A stretch of 64,000 nt of DNA from Kutzneria kofuensis. GTDB lineage: Bacteria; Actinomycetota; Actinomycetes; Mycobacteriales; Pseudonocardiaceae. Positions 31,665-37,445 of the stretch are shown here, one piece after another; position 1 is the stretch's first letter; each line of letters begins with the position of its first letter. The notes below the pieces were generated by a model. It did not search any database. It saw only the letters and a program-made list of their open reading frames with translations, and was not told the origin of the DNA. Location: contig NZ_JACHIR010000001.1 of assembly GCF_014203355.1 (NCBI RefSeq), forward strand, positions 3,598,038 to 3,662,037. Reading direction: 5' to 3'. The translations under genes were made by a program, and so were the position numbers.

Positions 31665-32350
31665 AGCCTGTCGCAATTTCCAATCAACTCCACCCATTTC
31701 GCCACCGCCGCGGCGTCGACCGGGTAGTCCCAGCCGCCGGGACGCACCGCGCTGCCGACGTGGAACCTCCGCACCCCGTCGGCCCGCAGCCCCGGAACGT
31801 GTTCGGCGCGCAGGCCGCCGCCGGCCATCACGGCGACGCCGTCCGTCTCCTGCATGGCGGCCAGCTTGCGCAGCACCGGCAGCCCGTCGGCGACGCCCTT
31901 GCCGCTGCCGGCGGCGAGCACGGTGTCGGCGCCGAGCGCGACGACGTCCTTCCACGACGTCAGCGGGTCGGCGGCGTTGTCGAGGGCCCGGTGAAACGTG
32001 AACTTGCAGCCGTCGAGCTCGTCGATCACGGCCTGGCAGGTGGCGACGTCGACGGTGCCGGCGTCGGTGAGCCAGCCGAGCACGAACTCGGTGATGCCGA
32101 CGTCCCGCAGCGCCACGGCCTCGGCCCGCAGCTGGTCGAGCGACCACGGCGCGAAGCCGGCGTCGTCGCGCAGCATCGCGCGCACGGGCAGGTCGGTGGC
32201 GGCGAGCACGCGGCGCGCGGTGGCCACGGCGGGGGTCAACCCGTCCGCGGCCATGTCGCTGACGAGCTCGAGCCGGTCCGCCCCGCCCTCCTGGGCGGCG
32301 TGCGCGTCCCGGGCGTCGAGCGCGATGACTTCCAGCAGCAGGTCCGACAT
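31658..32350 (-). CDS. cutC: CutC family protein
   Basis: This is a 230-residue TIM-barrel CutC (LLLEVIALDARDAHAAQEGGADRLELVSDM, FHRALD, VMAGGGLRAEHVPGL, FHVGS). The family was first linked to copper homeostasis, but its enzymatic role is unsettled. It is 27 bp upstream of the GH20 gene. The shared dre-type control suggests a role in amino-sugar metabolism here rather than copper. TATGGT lies 7 bp before the ATG with no ribosome site, so the message should be leaderless. Confidence 0.9.
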   Translation of the reverse strand: MSDLLLEVIALDARDAHAAQEGGADRLELVSDMAADGLTPAVATARRVLAATDLPVRAMLRDDAGFAPWSLDQLRAEAVALRDVGITEFVLGWLTDAGTVDVATCQAVIDELDGCKFTFHRALDNAADPLTSWKDVVALGADTVLAAGSGKGVADGLPVLRKLAAMQETDGVAVMAGGGLRAEHVPGLRADGVRRFHVGSAVRPGGWDYPVDAAAVAKWVELIGNCDRLV

Positions 32351-32362
32351 GGTCTAGACCAT
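32349..32362. promoter_or_regulatory. DasR-type operator (dre) over the cutC -10 and start codon
   Basis: ATGGTCTAGACCAT contains the full 12-bp dre core TGGTCTAGACCA. DasR, the GlcNAc-responsive GntR-family repressor of actinomycetes, binds this element. The palindrome covers the presumed -10 (TATGGT) and the A of the ATG, an ideal place to block initiation. Confidence 0.8.
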
Positions 32363-33024
32363 AGGGCCAACGAGCCGGTGATCACCACCGCCGATCAGGC
32401 AAGATCGAGAACCGGGAGAAAATTTTCGTGACCTTGTATCTCCCGGCCGACCTCTCACTCCTGTCCTGGTGTCTGGCTCGTTCACCCACGCCATGGGGGA
32501 CGACAACGGCGGACCGGGCGTCCCACAGGCGCCGGTCGGGGGTGGTGGACCCGTCTGGGGAGGCGGTTCCGCCAGGTCGAGAAACGCGCGAGAGGCGCCG
32601 GCCCACGGGGTGTCGGCCGGCCCGGTGTCGAGGGGGCATCGGTTCGGCCGTCGGGAGGCGGGCGCCGCAGCGCGGTGGACCCTTCACGTCAGCGGGGGTG
32701 TGAAGGGTCCGGGCCGGAGGCGACTACGCCGGCGTCGGACGGGGAGACCCGACGCCGGGCCGCCACAGTCGCCTCCGGCCCTTTCGCGCGCCCGATGAGC
32801 GCATTCCCTTTGCCTTGTTGATCACGCGCTGGCGTGTATCTGGTCCGTTCGAGCGATCCCTTGTTAAATCGTTGCGCTGTTCGAGGCGACTCGGCGGCAC
32901 AATGAGCACGCATGGTGAACCGGGAGGGGCCGGCCACCGTGTTCGCTCCACGACAGGACGCGGCCGCGCGGGGGAAGCAGTAGGCGCGGTCCGTCACCGG
33001 GGAACCGACAGAGGGGACCGATTC
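32351..33024. other. 674-bp region upstream of the repeat-protein gene
   Basis: No ORF with coding-like codon use spans this region. It holds the cutC operator at its left end, a large folded element at 32677-32781, and a lower-GC stretch near 32805-32880 that probably carries the promoter of the gene at 33025. Confidence 0.7.
32677..32781. other. Nested-hairpin element (candidate structured RNA, attenuator or terminator)
   Basis: Two perfect hairpins lie end to end. Hairpin A has an 11-bp stem (GGACCCTTCAC) with a 12-nt loop. Hairpin B has a 15-bp outer stem (GGGCCGGAGGCGACT, 32711-32725 with 32767-32781) enclosing a 10-bp inner stem (CCGGCGTCGG). It is followed by CTTTCG. It is too far from any stop codon to be an ordinary terminator. 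Confidence 0.6.
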
Positions 33025-33324
33025 ATGAGCACCACGGACGACACCACGTCGACCAGCACTCCGGACGCGACCACTCTCGACCCCGCGATGCTGGACGAGG
33101 TCGAGCAGGCGCTGCACGCCGCGGCGCAGGACGGTGGCGGGGACACCACCGACGGTGGCATCCCGCACGCCGAGGACCACCCCGGCGCCGTCGCGCTCGC
33201 CGACGTCGAGGGCGGCGTCGCACATCCCAACGGGGGCATCCCGCACGCCGAGACCACCAAGCCGGGCGGCGGCGTCGCCCACCCGAACGGCGGCATCCCG
33301 CACGCGGAGATCGTCCGCCCGTGA
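33025..33324 (+). CDS. Small GGIPHAE-repeat protein of unknown function
   Basis: The product has 99 residues, is acidic and lacks cysteines, a signal peptide and membrane segments. The N-terminal 20 residues are Ser/Thr/Asp-rich, followed by a short helix (MLDEVEQALHAAAQ). The C-terminal half has three exact GGIPHAE motifs (44-50, 70-76, 89-95), two of them inside the longer repeat GGVAHPNGGIPHAE (63-76, 82-95). GAGGGG lies 8 bp before the ATG. It precedes a sigma factor, a 169-residue protein and a TPR-CHAT protease on the same strand. A role as CHAT substrate or signal precursor is inference only. Confidence 0.8.
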   Translation: MSTTDDTTSTSTPDATTLDPAMLDEVEQALHAAAQDGGGDTTDGGIPHAEDHPGAVALADVEGGVAHPNGGIPHAETTKPGGGVAHPNGGIPHAEIVRP

Positions 33325-33630
33325 GATTCGGTCGCGCCGGTGGCGGCCGCGCCGCCGGCGCGATCCGCGTCGTTATCGATTCGTGAGTATCTGAGCCCGA
33401 GTTCGCCGCTCTTAATCACGTCGGGGCCCGTCCGGGGGTCCGCTGGAGTGAATGGGGCGGCGGTGGCAGCACACGGAAACACGCCGGGGGGCGTGGCCGT
33501 CATCGAGCACGATTGGCCCGACTGGCTGTGGACGACTACACCAGGTAGGGCAGGATGCAGGCACGGGGTGCGTCCCCGTGGTGGGGGAACCGGGGCGCGC
33601 CGACGTACCTCAGACCCGGAGGTGCATCGA
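33325..33630 (+). other. 306-bp spacer between the repeat protein and sigma genes
   Basis: The sigma frame stays open upstream to about 33340. From GTG 33448 about 29 codons have coding-like third positions and would read GGVAVIEHDWPDWLW, after which the bias fades. This is either an N-terminal extension of the sigma factor, a tiny separate peptide, or chance. Otherwise I see nothing. Confidence 0.4.
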
Positions 33631-34245
33631 ATGGCCGTTGACACGTGGGACGGGCTGACCGGCCACGACCCTTGGGAGGGGCTGACCGGTCACGACCGCC
33701 ACGCGGCGTGTCTCGTAGCGGCCAGAGCCGGCAACCGCAAGGCGCTGGACGTGCTGGTCGCCGACCTCACGCCGCTGGTCTGGCACGTCACCCGCAGCCA
33801 GGGCCTGGACAAGGTGCACGCGGAGGACGTCGTGCAGACCGTCTGGCTCGCGCTGCTGCGCCACCTCGACCGGCTCCAGCAGCCCAAGGCGCTGGCCGCG
33901 TGGCTGATCGTGACGGCGCGCCGCGAGGCGCAGCGCGCCAAGACCACCGGCTTCGACCGGGAGACGCCGGTCGCCGCCGAGGACCTCGTCGACATTCCCG
34001 CCCAGGTGGACGGTCCCGAGCAGCACGCGCTGCGCGACGACCGGGACCGCCGGCTGTGGGCCGCGTTCAAGCAGCTCACCGACCGTTGTCAGAAACTGCT
34101 CACGCTGACCGTGCTGTCCGGACGGGCGCAGTACGACGCGGTCGCGGAGGCGCTGGAGATGCCCCGCGGCAGCATCGGCCCGACCCGGGGGCGCTGCCTG
34201 ATCGCGCTGCGCGAGCTGCTCGACAAGGAAGGGGGGCCGCAATGA
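33631..34245 (+). CDS. ECF-type sigma-70 factor
   Basis: This is a 204-residue sigma factor. Region 2 (about 45-105) reads DLTPLVWHVTRSQGLDKVHAEDVVQTVWLALLRHLDRL and continues PKALAAWLIVTARREAQR. Region 4 (about 145-198) is a helix-turn-helix segment (LLTLTVLSGRAQYDAVAEALEMPRGSIGPTRGR). The N-terminus has a tandem duplication, WDGLTGHD then WEGLTGHD. ATG 33631 follows GGAGGTG. Its stop overlaps the next start (ATGA), a common layout for a sigma factor and its regulator. Confidence 0.9.
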   Translation: MAVDTWDGLTGHDPWEGLTGHDRHAACLVAARAGNRKALDVLVADLTPLVWHVTRSQGLDKVHAEDVVQTVWLALLRHLDRLQQPKALAAWLIVTARREAQRAKTTGFDRETPVAAEDLVDIPAQVDGPEQHALRDDRDRRLWAAFKQLTDRCQKLLTLTVLSGRAQYDAVAEALEMPRGSIGPTRGRCLIALRELLDKEGGPQ

Positions 34246-34751
34246 GCCACACCGACGGCGAGAACGAGTTCGAGGCCGGCTTGGACATGGACCACCTCAC
34301 CGAGCAGGACCTGCTCCTGCTCGCCGAGCTCGACGTGCTGTTCGACAAGGTCGACCCGGTCCCGGCCGACCTCGTCGAGCGCGTGCAGTTCGCGATCGCG
34401 CTGGAGGACCTCGACGTCGAGGTCGCGCGCTGGGAGCGCGCCGAGGAGCTGGCCGGCGTCCGGGGCGCCGGCCCGAACACCGTGACCTTCACCGTGGAAG
34501 ACCTGACCATCATGGTCAGCTTCGCTCCGGCCGGTGCCGGGTACCGGTTCGACGGCTGGCTGGTACCCGGAGGCCCGCACACCGTCGAGGTCCGCGTCGC
34601 CGGGCACTCGTCGACCACCGCGGAGGCCGACGAGGGCGGCCGGTTCGCGGTCGACGACGTGCCCAAGGGCACTACGCAGCTCGTGGTGCACATGGCCAAC
34701 GGGACCGGTTCGCGGCCGCGGACGATCGTGACGCCGACGCTCATGCTGTAG
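34242..34751 (+). CDS. Sigma-linked 169-residue protein, candidate anti-sigma or CHAT adaptor
   Basis: I do not recognise the family. Residues about 12-68 are strongly acidic and helical (HLTEQDLLLLAELDVLFDKV, LVERVQFAIALEDLDVEVARW). Residues about 80-169 look beta-rich and transthyretin/Ig-like (VTFTVEDLTIMVSFAPAG, DGWLVPGGPHTVEVRVAGH, FAVDDVPKGTTQLVVHM). There is no membrane segment. The start codon overlaps the sigma stop by ATGA, so it is made in fixed ratio with sigma, and the CHAT protease gene follows 45 bp later. Anti-sigma activity is inference. Confidence 0.75.
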   Translation: MSHTDGENEFEAGLDMDHLTEQDLLLLAELDVLFDKVDPVPADLVERVQFAIALEDLDVEVARWERAEELAGVRGAGPNTVTFTVEDLTIMVSFAPAGAGYRFDGWLVPGGPHTVEVRVAGHSSTTAEADEGGRFAVDDVPKGTTQLVVHMANGTGSRPRTIVTPTLML

Positions 34752-34796
34752 CCACTCGATCTTTCCCCGGACGGTGGACACCACACCTTCGGCGGG

Positions 34797-37445
34797 GTGT
34801 GCTGGTATGTACGAGTGCCTCCGTCGTCCACTGCCGCTGCCGCGCGCCCACGCGCCGTCGCGGCCGTGCTGGACCGGGTGGCGAAGCTGCACGCCGGCGC
34901 GCACAAGACCGCGCTGTCCCAGCAGTACGCGGAGGCGTCCCGGCTGCACCGCCGGGCGCTGAGGCTGCTCGACCGGCTGCCGGCCGACGACCAGGAGCAG
35001 CAGCGGCTGCGGGTGCGGGTGCTCACCTCTCTCGCGCACACCGACGCCGAGGCGTACGGGCTGCGTGAGGGCATGCCGTCGCTGGTGCAGGCCGGCAAGC
35101 TGGTGTCGTCGATGCCGGCCGGCACCCAGCGGATGACGCTGGAGGGTCTGATCGAGCGCCAGCGCGGCAACCTGCTCTGGCGGGCCGGCCGGCTGCCCGA
35201 GGCGCTCGACGTGCTGGACAAGGCCGTGGTCGCGACCGACAAGGCGCTGGCCTCCGGCGCCCCCGTCGAGAACGGCCTGATCAGCGCGCTGACCGCCCGT
35301 GCGCTGGTGAACAGCGCCATGGGCAACCCGCACTCGGCCGGCGACGACCTGCGCCGCTGCCTGTGGCTCGGCCACACCTACCACTCCCCGCTGACGCTGG
35401 CGATCACCACCAACAACCTCGGCGAGATGCACTACCGGATGGGCGATGCCCCGACGGCGCTGCGCTACTACGAGGAGGCCGAGCGGCTGATGTCCCGCGT
35501 CGCGCCGACGGCCGTGCCGAAGGTGCGTACCGACCGCGCGCAGGTGCTGCTCTACGCCGGGCTGTCCGAGGAGGCCGCCAACGCCCTGGACGAGGCGTTC
35601 GGCAGCCTGCGTGAGCAGGGCGGCAACCGCGACCTGGCAGAGGCGGAGACGCTGCGTGCCGCCGCGGCCGTGATGGAGGGCGACTACGCCACCGCTCGGG
35701 CGTTCGCCGACCTCGCGCGGCGGCGTTACCTGCGGCAGGAGCGGCCCGCGATGGCCTGGCTGGCCTCGCTGACCGGGCTGCACGCCGCCGCCGCGGCCGC
35801 GCTGAGCGGTCCTCGCAAGCCGTCGAAGGCGTTGGTGCGGAAGGCCTTGGAGCTGTCCGAGGGGCTCGGCGAGGTCGCTCAGGCCGACGAGTCCGCCGTC
35901 GCCAAGCTGCTCGCCGTGCGCCTCCAGCTGCGGCGCGGCGAAGCCGCCGACGCCGCCCGGCTGCTGGCCGAGGTGCCCGCGCCGCGCCGGTTCACGTCCA
36001 TCGACCACCGGATGCTGCGGCGGCTGGCCCGCGCCGAGGTCGCCGTGGCCATGGGCGATCGCCGTACCGCGTTCAGCCAGGCCCGGGTCGGGTTCACCGA
36101 GCTGGGCCGCACCCGTGATCGCATGGGCGGGCTGGAGCTGGTGTGCGGCACCGCCGTGCACGGGCGGGAGCTCGGGGTGCTGGCCGTGCGCCTCGTGCTC
36201 GACGGCGGCCGGTCCGCTGCCGTCGCGCGACGGCTGTTCGGCTGGCTGGAGCGGACCCGGGCGCAGGTGTACCGGTACGAGCCGCAGCCGTCCATCGACG
36301 ATCCCGAGCTGGCCGACCGGGTCAGCGAGATCCGAAACCTGACGCGGTCCATGCAGCTGGCCAAGGCCGAGGGCCGGCGGGTGCGGGAGATGGCCGCCCG
36401 GCACGCCGCCTTGCAGCAGGAGGTCACCCGGCTCGGCTGGCAGACGACGGTGTGGGGTCGGCCTCGCCCCGTCGCCGACCTCGCCGAGGTCGGCAAGCGG
36501 CTCGAGGACCGGGCGATGATCAGCTTCGCCGCCGTGGACGATGCGCTGGTCGCCGTCGTCATCGTCGACGGGCGGCCGCGGCTCGTGCGCCTCGGCAGCG
36601 TCACCGACGCCCGGCAGAACGCCAAGATGCTGCACGCCGACCTCGACGCCCTGGCCCCCGACCACCTGCCTGCGGCCCTGGTCGAGGTCGTCTCCGCCTC
36701 CGCCCGCCGCCGTGCGCAGTTCCTCGACGACCAACTGCTGCGGCCTCTCGCCGGCATCGTCGGCGACCGGGAGCTCGTCGTCGTGCCCACCGGTCCCCTC
36801 TATCCCATCGCCTGGGGCGCTCTGCCGTCCCTGCGCGGGCGGCCCGTCGTCGTCGCCCCTTCCGCCACGGCTTGGCTCGCCGCCTCCGCCGACCAGCAGC
36901 TTCCCGGCACCGGTCGCAGCGTCCTGGTCGGCGGGCCCGACCTGCCCGCGGCCGTCGGTGAGGTCGCCCAGCTCACCCGCTACCTGCCCAGCGCCCAGGT
37001 CCTCGACGGCCCCCGTGCCACCGTCGAGGCCGTGCTGGAGGCCCTGGACGGCGCCCAGCTCGCCCACATCGCCGCCCATGGCATGCACGAGCCCGGCAAC
37101 GCCCTCTTCTCGCGGCTGGATCTTGTCGACGGCGGCCTCTTCGCCCACGAGACCGCCCGCCTGCAGCGGCCGCCCGAGCAGGTCGTCCTCGCCGCCTGCG
37201 AGCTGGCCCTCTCCCGCATCCGCCCCGGCGACGAGGCCCTCGGTTTCGCCGGCGCGTTGTTGGCGACCGGCGTCCGCACTGTCACCGCCGCGGTGTCCCG
37301 GGTCGGCGACCACACCGCCGCCGACAGCATGGCCTTCTATCACCGGCGGGTCGCCGAGGGCGCCCGCCCCGCGGTGGCCCTGGCCGACGCCACCGCCGCC
37401 GACCCCCTGCGGCGCCCCTTCATCTGCCTCGGCGCCAGCAACTAA
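34797..37445 (+). CDS. TPR-CHAT caspase-like protease
   Basis: The product has 882 residues. Residues about 30-470 are tetratricopeptide-like helices (RLHRRALRLLDRL, RQRGNLLWRAGRLPEALDVLDKAV, TTNNLGEMHYRMGDAPTALRYY). A linker coiled helix lies around 480-545. The C-terminal CHAT domain has the caspase dyad His761 (HIAAHGMHEPG) and Cys801 (VVLAACELALSR), followed by the conserved GDEALGFAGALLATGVRTV. Such proteases cleave partner proteins in signalling or defence. No signal peptide is evident. GTG 34797 is the longest start; GTG 34815 and 34869 are alternatives with no clear ribosome site. Confidence 0.9.
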   Translation: MCWYVRVPPSSTAAAARPRAVAAVLDRVAKLHAGAHKTALSQQYAEASRLHRRALRLLDRLPADDQEQQRLRVRVLTSLAHTDAEAYGLREGMPSLVQAGKLVSSMPAGTQRMTLEGLIERQRGNLLWRAGRLPEALDVLDKAVVATDKALASGAPVENGLISALTARALVNSAMGNPHSAGDDLRRCLWLGHTYHSPLTLAITTNNLGEMHYRMGDAPTALRYYEEAERLMSRVAPTAVPKVRTDRAQVLLYAGLSEEAANALDEAFGSLREQGGNRDLAEAETLRAAAAVMEGDYATARAFADLARRRYLRQERPAMAWLASLTGLHAAAAAALSGPRKPSKALVRKALELSEGLGEVAQADESAVAKLLAVRLQLRRGEAADAARLLAEVPAPRRFTSIDHRMLRRLARAEVAVAMGDRRTAFSQARVGFTELGRTRDRMGGLELVCGTAVHGRELGVLAVRLVLDGGRSAAVARRLFGWLERTRAQVYRYEPQPSIDDPELADRVSEIRNLTRSMQLAKAEGRRVREMAARHAALQQEVTRLGWQTTVWGRPRPVADLAEVGKRLEDRAMISFAAVDDALVAVVIVDGRPRLVRLGSVTDARQNAKMLHADLDALAPDHLPAALVEVVSASARRRAQFLDDQLLRPLAGIVGDRELVVVPTGPLYPIAWGALPSLRGRPVVVAPSATAWLAASADQQLPGTGRSVLVGGPDLPAAVGEVAQLTRYLPSAQVLDGPRATVEAVLEALDGAQLAHIAAHGMHEPGNALFSRLDLVDGGLFAHETARLQRPPEQVVLAACELALSRIRPGDEALGFAGALLATGVRTVTAAVSRVGDHTAADSMAFYHRRVAEGARPAVALADATAADPLRRPFICLGASN

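Follow-up and report, generated by a model that had tools for sequence, protein, structure and literature searches.

A small acidic motif peptide beside the TPR-CHAT protease of an ECF54-like locus in Kutzneria kofuensis

The locus and its closest described relatives

For the ECF54 group of extracytoplasmic function (ECF) sigma factors, the available text of a review describes a gene context comprising the sigma factor, a carboxypeptidase-type domain protein, a subtilase, and a CHAT protein, proposes proteolytic control, and names AntA as the only other sigma factor experimentally shown (PMC8999054). In the present study, we analyzed a locus of Kutzneria kofuensis (contig NZ_JACHIR010000001.1) in a stretch of 64,000 nt, hereafter the window, within which all positions are counted. 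Four real and intact genes on the same strand encode a repeat peptide, an ECF sigma factor, a 169-residue protein, and a TPR-CHAT protease; the sigma factor and CHAT are shared with the ECF54 context as far as that text describes it, whereas the window locus lacks the subtilase and has a motif peptide instead. Since the sigma factor and the TPR-CHAT, and probably the 169-residue protein, match the ECF54 context, three of the four genes do not form a new set, and what is new relative to ECF54 is the fourth gene, the small motif peptide. The initial annotation of this DNA, which knew of no description of the exact set, thus stands for the repeat peptide only, for which, linked to a CHAT, no description was among the papers listed in searches of the open-licence PMC literature. 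The pairing of the CHAT with this peptide is well supported by sequence evidence, which does not distinguish between cutting, inhibition, and signaling.

Besides ECF54, the type III-E CASP/Craspase system, in which Csx29 cuts Csx30, provides a precedent involving CASP-sigma, according to the available text (PMC10028731). The window locus resembles it in the TPR-CHAT fold, the His/Cys site, the sigma factor, and a possible inhibitor, whereas no Cas7-11 or Csx30 was present among the genes read, no model search having been aimed at them, and the CHAT scored 16.3 bits against the Csx29 model NF041237 (cut-off 300), which places it outside that family. The type III-E analogy drawn in the initial annotation holds for a comparable sigma/partner/TPR-CHAT locus and for a link between the CHAT and the repeat protein; it fits less well in that the peptide tracks the CHAT, not the sigma factor. 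In EACC2-caspase systems, a caspase-fold protease, a TPR protein, and an ECF sigma factor also share one neighborhood, and the available text of their description names no CHAT domain (PMC8195603). In DdvA, a structural and sequence match to the window CHAT, a CHAT is likewise tied to sigma control; however, it lies inside a chain titled transmembrane anti-sigma factor, whereas the window CHAT and the putative anti-sigma factor are encoded by separate genes.

Securin, which is small, acidic, and probably disordered, occupies the caspase-type site of separase. The predicted structure of the window CHAT (pLDDT 90.8), which includes a long helical TPR region, had separases as its top six structural matches, followed by Csx29, with DdvA within the first 13, at modest TM-scores of 0.26-0.46 by query length for all three. 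The likeness to separase-securin therefore lies in these separase-first matches at low TM-scores and in a small, acidic, probably disordered partner, with no sequence relation being shown. The features of the locus are as follows.

32435 to 32463, forward strand: promoter-like element 1, TGTATCT-N16-CTCCTG, preceding the structured leader
32681 to 32706, forward strand: conserved hairpin, CCTTCAC-N12-GTGAAGG, within a leader or small RNA that has no conserved open reading frame (ORF)
32835 to 32863, forward strand: promoter-like element 2, preceding the gene for the repeat peptide, with the tail CCCTT (one mismatch)
33025 to 33324, forward strand: repeat peptide, 99 residues, acidic, probably disordered, with three GGIPHAE motifs
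33387 to 33413, forward strand: promoter-like element 3, GTATCT-N16-CTCTT, ahead of the sigma factor gene
33631 to 34245, forward strand: ECF sigma factor whose gene context is ECF54-like
34242 to 34751, forward strand: 169-residue protein composed of two N-terminal helices and a beta sandwich, with weak likeness to carboxypeptidase-regulatory domains
34797 to 37445, forward strand: TPR-CHAT protease with catalytic His761/Cys801

The four genes, the ATGA overlap joining the sigma factor and 169-residue genes, and the His761/Cys801 pair, all noted initially, were borne out. The sigma factor matched TIGR02937 (E 3.9e-20) and Sigma70_r2 (E 8.5e-11), the protein at 34797-37445 matched CHAT (PF12770, E 3.6e-26) and TPR, and both catalytic residues were invariant in 61 aligned sequences, including that of the window. 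The start of the CHAT is uncertain: GTG 34797 lacks a clear ribosome site, and the gene caller chose GTG 34866. The 169-residue protein matched CarboxypepD_reg weakly (E 0.0046, 17.7 bits against a cut-off of 32.3), and its model (pLDDT 83.7) has two helices and a beta sandwich. A known fold was rejected for it because the model had no match in the PDB at E 1e-3 and a single weak sequence match was obtained, to NOMO2 (E 8.6e-4); it looks like a regulatory-type beta-sandwich domain rather than an enzyme and is likely a sigma partner or anti-sigma factor.

Exchange of the subtilase for a motif peptide

Of 394 Actinomycetes genomes sampled, 60 encoded relatives of the 169-residue protein, and 60 of 63 places were fetched; a Pseudonocardiaceae-type set was made up of the best 80 of 112 loci with such relatives and, together with the window, comprised 81. 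The sigma factor adjoined the 169-residue gene in 80/80 and 59/60 loci, respectively, and a CHAT was present in 42/81 (window included) and 39/60; the gene set recurs widely. These 42 CHAT-bearing window-type sigma loci constitute set A and the 39 loci from the sampled genomes set B. Set C comprises 20 CHATs at 47-53% identity, two of which repeat set A, set D 40 CHAT loci picked by hand, two of them shared with set B, and set E 20 weaker CHATs.

When seven S8 proteins taken from sets B and D were used to search up to 4.5 kb from the CHAT, an S8 subtilase was found near 38/39 CHATs in set B, 38/40 in set D, and 18/20 in set E, one of the two exceptions in the last (L244) being a window-type locus itself, versus 0/42 in set A and 0/20 in set C. 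The neighboring gene of 350-609 residues at canonical loci was an S8 subtilase in all seven that were scanned. One canonical ECF54-like locus with both an S8 subtilase and a CHAT is located in the same genome as the window (L185, G000:C1:3261000-3269000), which has a size of 10.4 Mb and is close to that of Kutzneria sp. 744.

In place of the subtilase, a motif peptide was read by eye in 40/40 evaluable CHAT-bearing loci of set A; L021, L038, L039, L058, and L073 had been left out before this count because they were at contig ends. A peptide was also encoded upstream of the CHAT in 18/18 set C loci after removal of the repeats (17 by the gene caller and one by hand), 16 of which had neither a sigma factor nor a 169-residue gene nearby and two a sigma factor only. 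As a control in the same 18 loci, a small same-strand gene preceded 28 of 103 other large genes. Two or more motifs within one ORF occurred in 17/40 loci with a CHAT versus 0/36 without. A motif regular expression matched at least once in 37/40 versus 4/36 loci (reverse strand, 7/40 and 1/36; shuffled mean, 0.27 and 0.23), with the four matches and some of the 37 lying in spurious-looking ORFs and two of the three copies in the window being missed. Fisher tests on co-occurrence treated related genomes as independent and included repeated loci, and are indicative only.

A FastTree phylogeny of hand-picked CHATs (A 20/42, C 18/18, B 23/39, D 20/40, E 19/20), from which 17 of 100 picks, none of them in sets A or C, were lost as pieces shorter than 600 residues, recovered the peptide-type CHATs as a single clade of 38 rows with support 95. 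Within it, the 18 rows not linked to a sigma factor grouped as a subclade with support 100; the sister row, L186, bears an S8 subtilase.

The window peptide has 16 acidic versus two Lys/Arg residues. A DNA pattern for GGIPHAE matched only its own gene genome-wide; further genes with this tag were rejected because the pattern was unique and protein matches were at E 0.02 or worse. Elsewhere, the small acidic gene carries GAWDPNT, GWDPYA, GNWEPN, GHHQTH, or GGPYKPT in place of the Kutzneria GGIPHAE; the motif varies between genera, with the forms GIPHAE, GIPQAE, GIGHAE, GAWDPNT, GNWSPNT, GNWEPN, GWEGNS, GWDPYA, GHHQTHS, GHHETNG, GATDPS, GGPYKPT, and GTYPFD. In multi-copy peptides, the motif is closely repeated within one peptide, and many peptides are single-copy. 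Read by eye, the layout Gly-x-(W/H/P/T)-(acidic/polar)-(P/T/A/G)-(polar)-(small) resembles a caspase-type site. Cys/His-rich paralogue peptides, which might bind metal or be modified, were encoded upstream of the CHAT at L174, L175, L176, L177, L178, L179, L180, L181, L183, and L184.

The sigma-169 pair persisted without a local CHAT in 36/76 evaluable Pseudonocardiaceae-type loci and 14 further loci among those listed, as well as in an orphan ECF54-like pair in the genome of the window (L094, G000:C1:788000-803000); a CHAT at the locus is thus not required for the pair to be maintained. Decay of the peptide was visible at such loci: L015 retains remnants of a CHAT together with a frameshifted peptide, in L020 the motif portion survives but has no start at the usual place, and in L014 the peptide is reduced to a stub of 21 residues. 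In Amycolatopsis and Prauserella, the motif repeats and a beta domain form one fused protein; L049, L050, L052, and L055, without a local CHAT, encode the beta-domain protein minus the repeats, which are present in CHAT-bearing members of both genera, and L050 also has a papain gene. Upstream of the sigma factor at L049-L056, L059, L060, L062, L063, L069, L079, and L084, there was a gene for a papain-family protease, for a small beta-domain protein with the motif WKRLSPAS, or for both, the beta-domain protein at L084 having no Pfam match. In the sigma+169 tree, the CHAT changes eight times (five forced). Other CHATs were found in 13/13 searched genomes, including nine that lack a CHAT at the sigma locus; genome-wide CHAT loss was therefore rejected, and CHATs encoded elsewhere could act in trans.

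The locus had been suggested to be a signaling or defence cassette. None of its four proteins had a match in the PADLOC defence library at E 0.001, and groEL was within the fetched stretch in 44/81 sigma-linked loci, a fixed address that looks unlike a mobile defence island.

Upstream element and structured leader

The window has a GTATCT-N16-CTC element ahead of the leader, the peptide gene, and the sigma factor gene. The GTATCT-N16-CTCMT form of element 1 was present in 6/6 Kutzneria loci, and element 1 was the sole zero-mismatch site of the searched pattern genome-wide. When loci were scanned for GTATCT-N16-CTCHT with up to one mismatch within 900 bp upstream of the sigma factor, matches were obtained in 68/81 Pseudonocardiaceae-type loci and 19/59 other loci; five permuted patterns gave 0-3 matches among the 81 and none among the 59, and other spacings 0-3 among the 59.

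The folded leader predicted initially was confirmed: the region 32470-32830 folded at z -3.29 relative to 100 shuffles, one of which folded equally well. Its hairpin, followed by a terminator-like second hairpin, was kept in 6/6 Kutzneria loci, with one differing loop base in L009, and occurred once in the genome. A known RNA family was rejected because an Rfam search of 32300-34000 gave no match at E up to 1, and an extra gene between elements 1 and 2 was rejected because the reading frames were not conserved. The region 32435-32800, an element followed by a folded ORF-less stretch, is possibly a new small RNA or leader.

Possible roles of the peptide

We regard the chances as about even that this locus is an ECF54-like regulator with an added two-gene unit, in which the peptide serves the CHAT as a dedicated substrate or substrate-like inhibitor. 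The sigma factor and its translationally coupled 169-residue partner, probably an anti-sigma factor with an inhibitory role, would constitute the regulator. Because the usual subtilase is missing and a motif peptide stands beside the CHAT instead, in the position that the subtilase would hold at canonical ECF54-like loci, the peptide is probably the private partner of the CHAT. It would bind the protease and either be cut at or near the motif or block it by sitting in the caspase-type site in the manner of securin in separase. The sigma factor may recognize the GTATCT-N16-CTC element, through which, in Kutzneria, it probably drives the peptide gene as well as the sigma-169-CHAT operon to which it belongs; with this common element, the protease and its partner would be made together.

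Several observations weigh against this interpretation. In the window, the sigma factor and 169-residue genes lie between the peptide and CHAT genes. The chemistry of the motif is highly variable, and the common layout does not accommodate 10 of the 18 sigma-unlinked peptides, which are Cys/His-rich (MCIGGGC, CCGPPIHY, NCGPPCYQ); such variety is odd for a single protease site. One of the 36 sigma loci without a CHAT, L011, has an intact motif peptide in an ORF of 39 residues; moreover, the peptide follows the CHAT in four of five supported independent pairs, a weak result (p 0.125), and because genomes without a CHAT at the sigma locus hold other peptide-CHAT pairs, the loss is local only. Regarding the upstream element, only the 59 loci provide an independent test because it was first spotted by eye in the 81, and one genus supplies nine of the 19 matches among the 59; among the 81, a spacing of 13 gave 26 matches and the remaining spacings 0-13. 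None of the 18 sigma-unlinked peptide-CHAT pairs had the element upstream. A one-mismatch genome scan returned 11 sites versus 13 for the reversed-pattern control; a wider regulon was rejected on this count, and, in the absence of enrichment, the regulon may extend little beyond the locus itself.

More tentatively, the pairs may form a Pseudonocardiaceae family of private couples, a bacterial counterpart of separase-securin, in which every TPR-CHAT of the clade would have a small disordered peptide to itself, with a fast-diverging, self-homogenizing motif acting as a cleavage tag or pseudosubstrate lock. Such a family would have had a single origin, when an ECF54-like locus exchanged its subtilase for the peptide, followed by duplication away from the sigma factor into parallel, insulated pairs.

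A relay similar to that of Csx29, in which the CHAT, as proposed initially, frees the sigma factor, here by cutting the 169-residue anti-sigma factor, with the motif peptide as a sigma-induced multi-site decoy that ends the response, appears doubtful. It accords with the near-constant adjacency of the sigma factor and 169-residue genes, the position of the element ahead of both the sigma factor and peptide genes, the CHAT within an anti-sigma factor in DdvA, the ECF54 proteolysis proposal in the available text (PMC8999054), and the Csx30/CASP-sigma precedent (PMC10028731). However, the sigma-169 pair is retained at loci that have no CHAT, peptide-CHAT pairs exist without a sigma-169 pair, and no convincing copy of the repeat motif was seen by eye in the 169-residue protein.

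In RRNPPA systems, TPR receptors sense propeptides, and the TPR domain of the CHAT may similarly sense the motif peptide or its pieces as a signal. The small gene, the fast-diverging repeated motifs, the parallel paralogous pairs, and the long helical TPR region of the model are all compatible with this role, which we nevertheless consider unlikely because the N-termini of the peptides are acidic and hydrophilic, with no export signal recognized by eye, and the catalytic residues of the CHAT are invariant. It is more improbable still that the peptide acts as an effector in its own right, binding metal or a surface or giving rise to a modified peptide, and is only co-regulated with the CHAT, as the Cys/His-rich versions and the beta-domain fusion might suggest, since it accompanies the CHAT at loci away from the sigma factor as well and degenerates at sigma loci that lack a CHAT.

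Proteolytic control in ECF54 has so far been proposed from gene context, and the present variant provides natural knock-outs as well as candidates for a small partner of its CHAT and for the promoter element of the sigma factor. Should the peptides prove to be cleavage tags, protease/tag pairs that are useful as tools may be obtained from the paralogous couples. Nine of the sigma-unlinked pairs (L165, L167, L170, L172, L173, L179, L180, L182, and L184) are near a gatB-like gene, named by eye. Furthermore, L052 and L064 (JOAA01000004.1 and JOAA01000009.1), titled Rhodococcus rhodnii NRRL B-16535, fall inside Kibdelosporangium in the sigma+169 tree, and this record is perhaps mislabelled.

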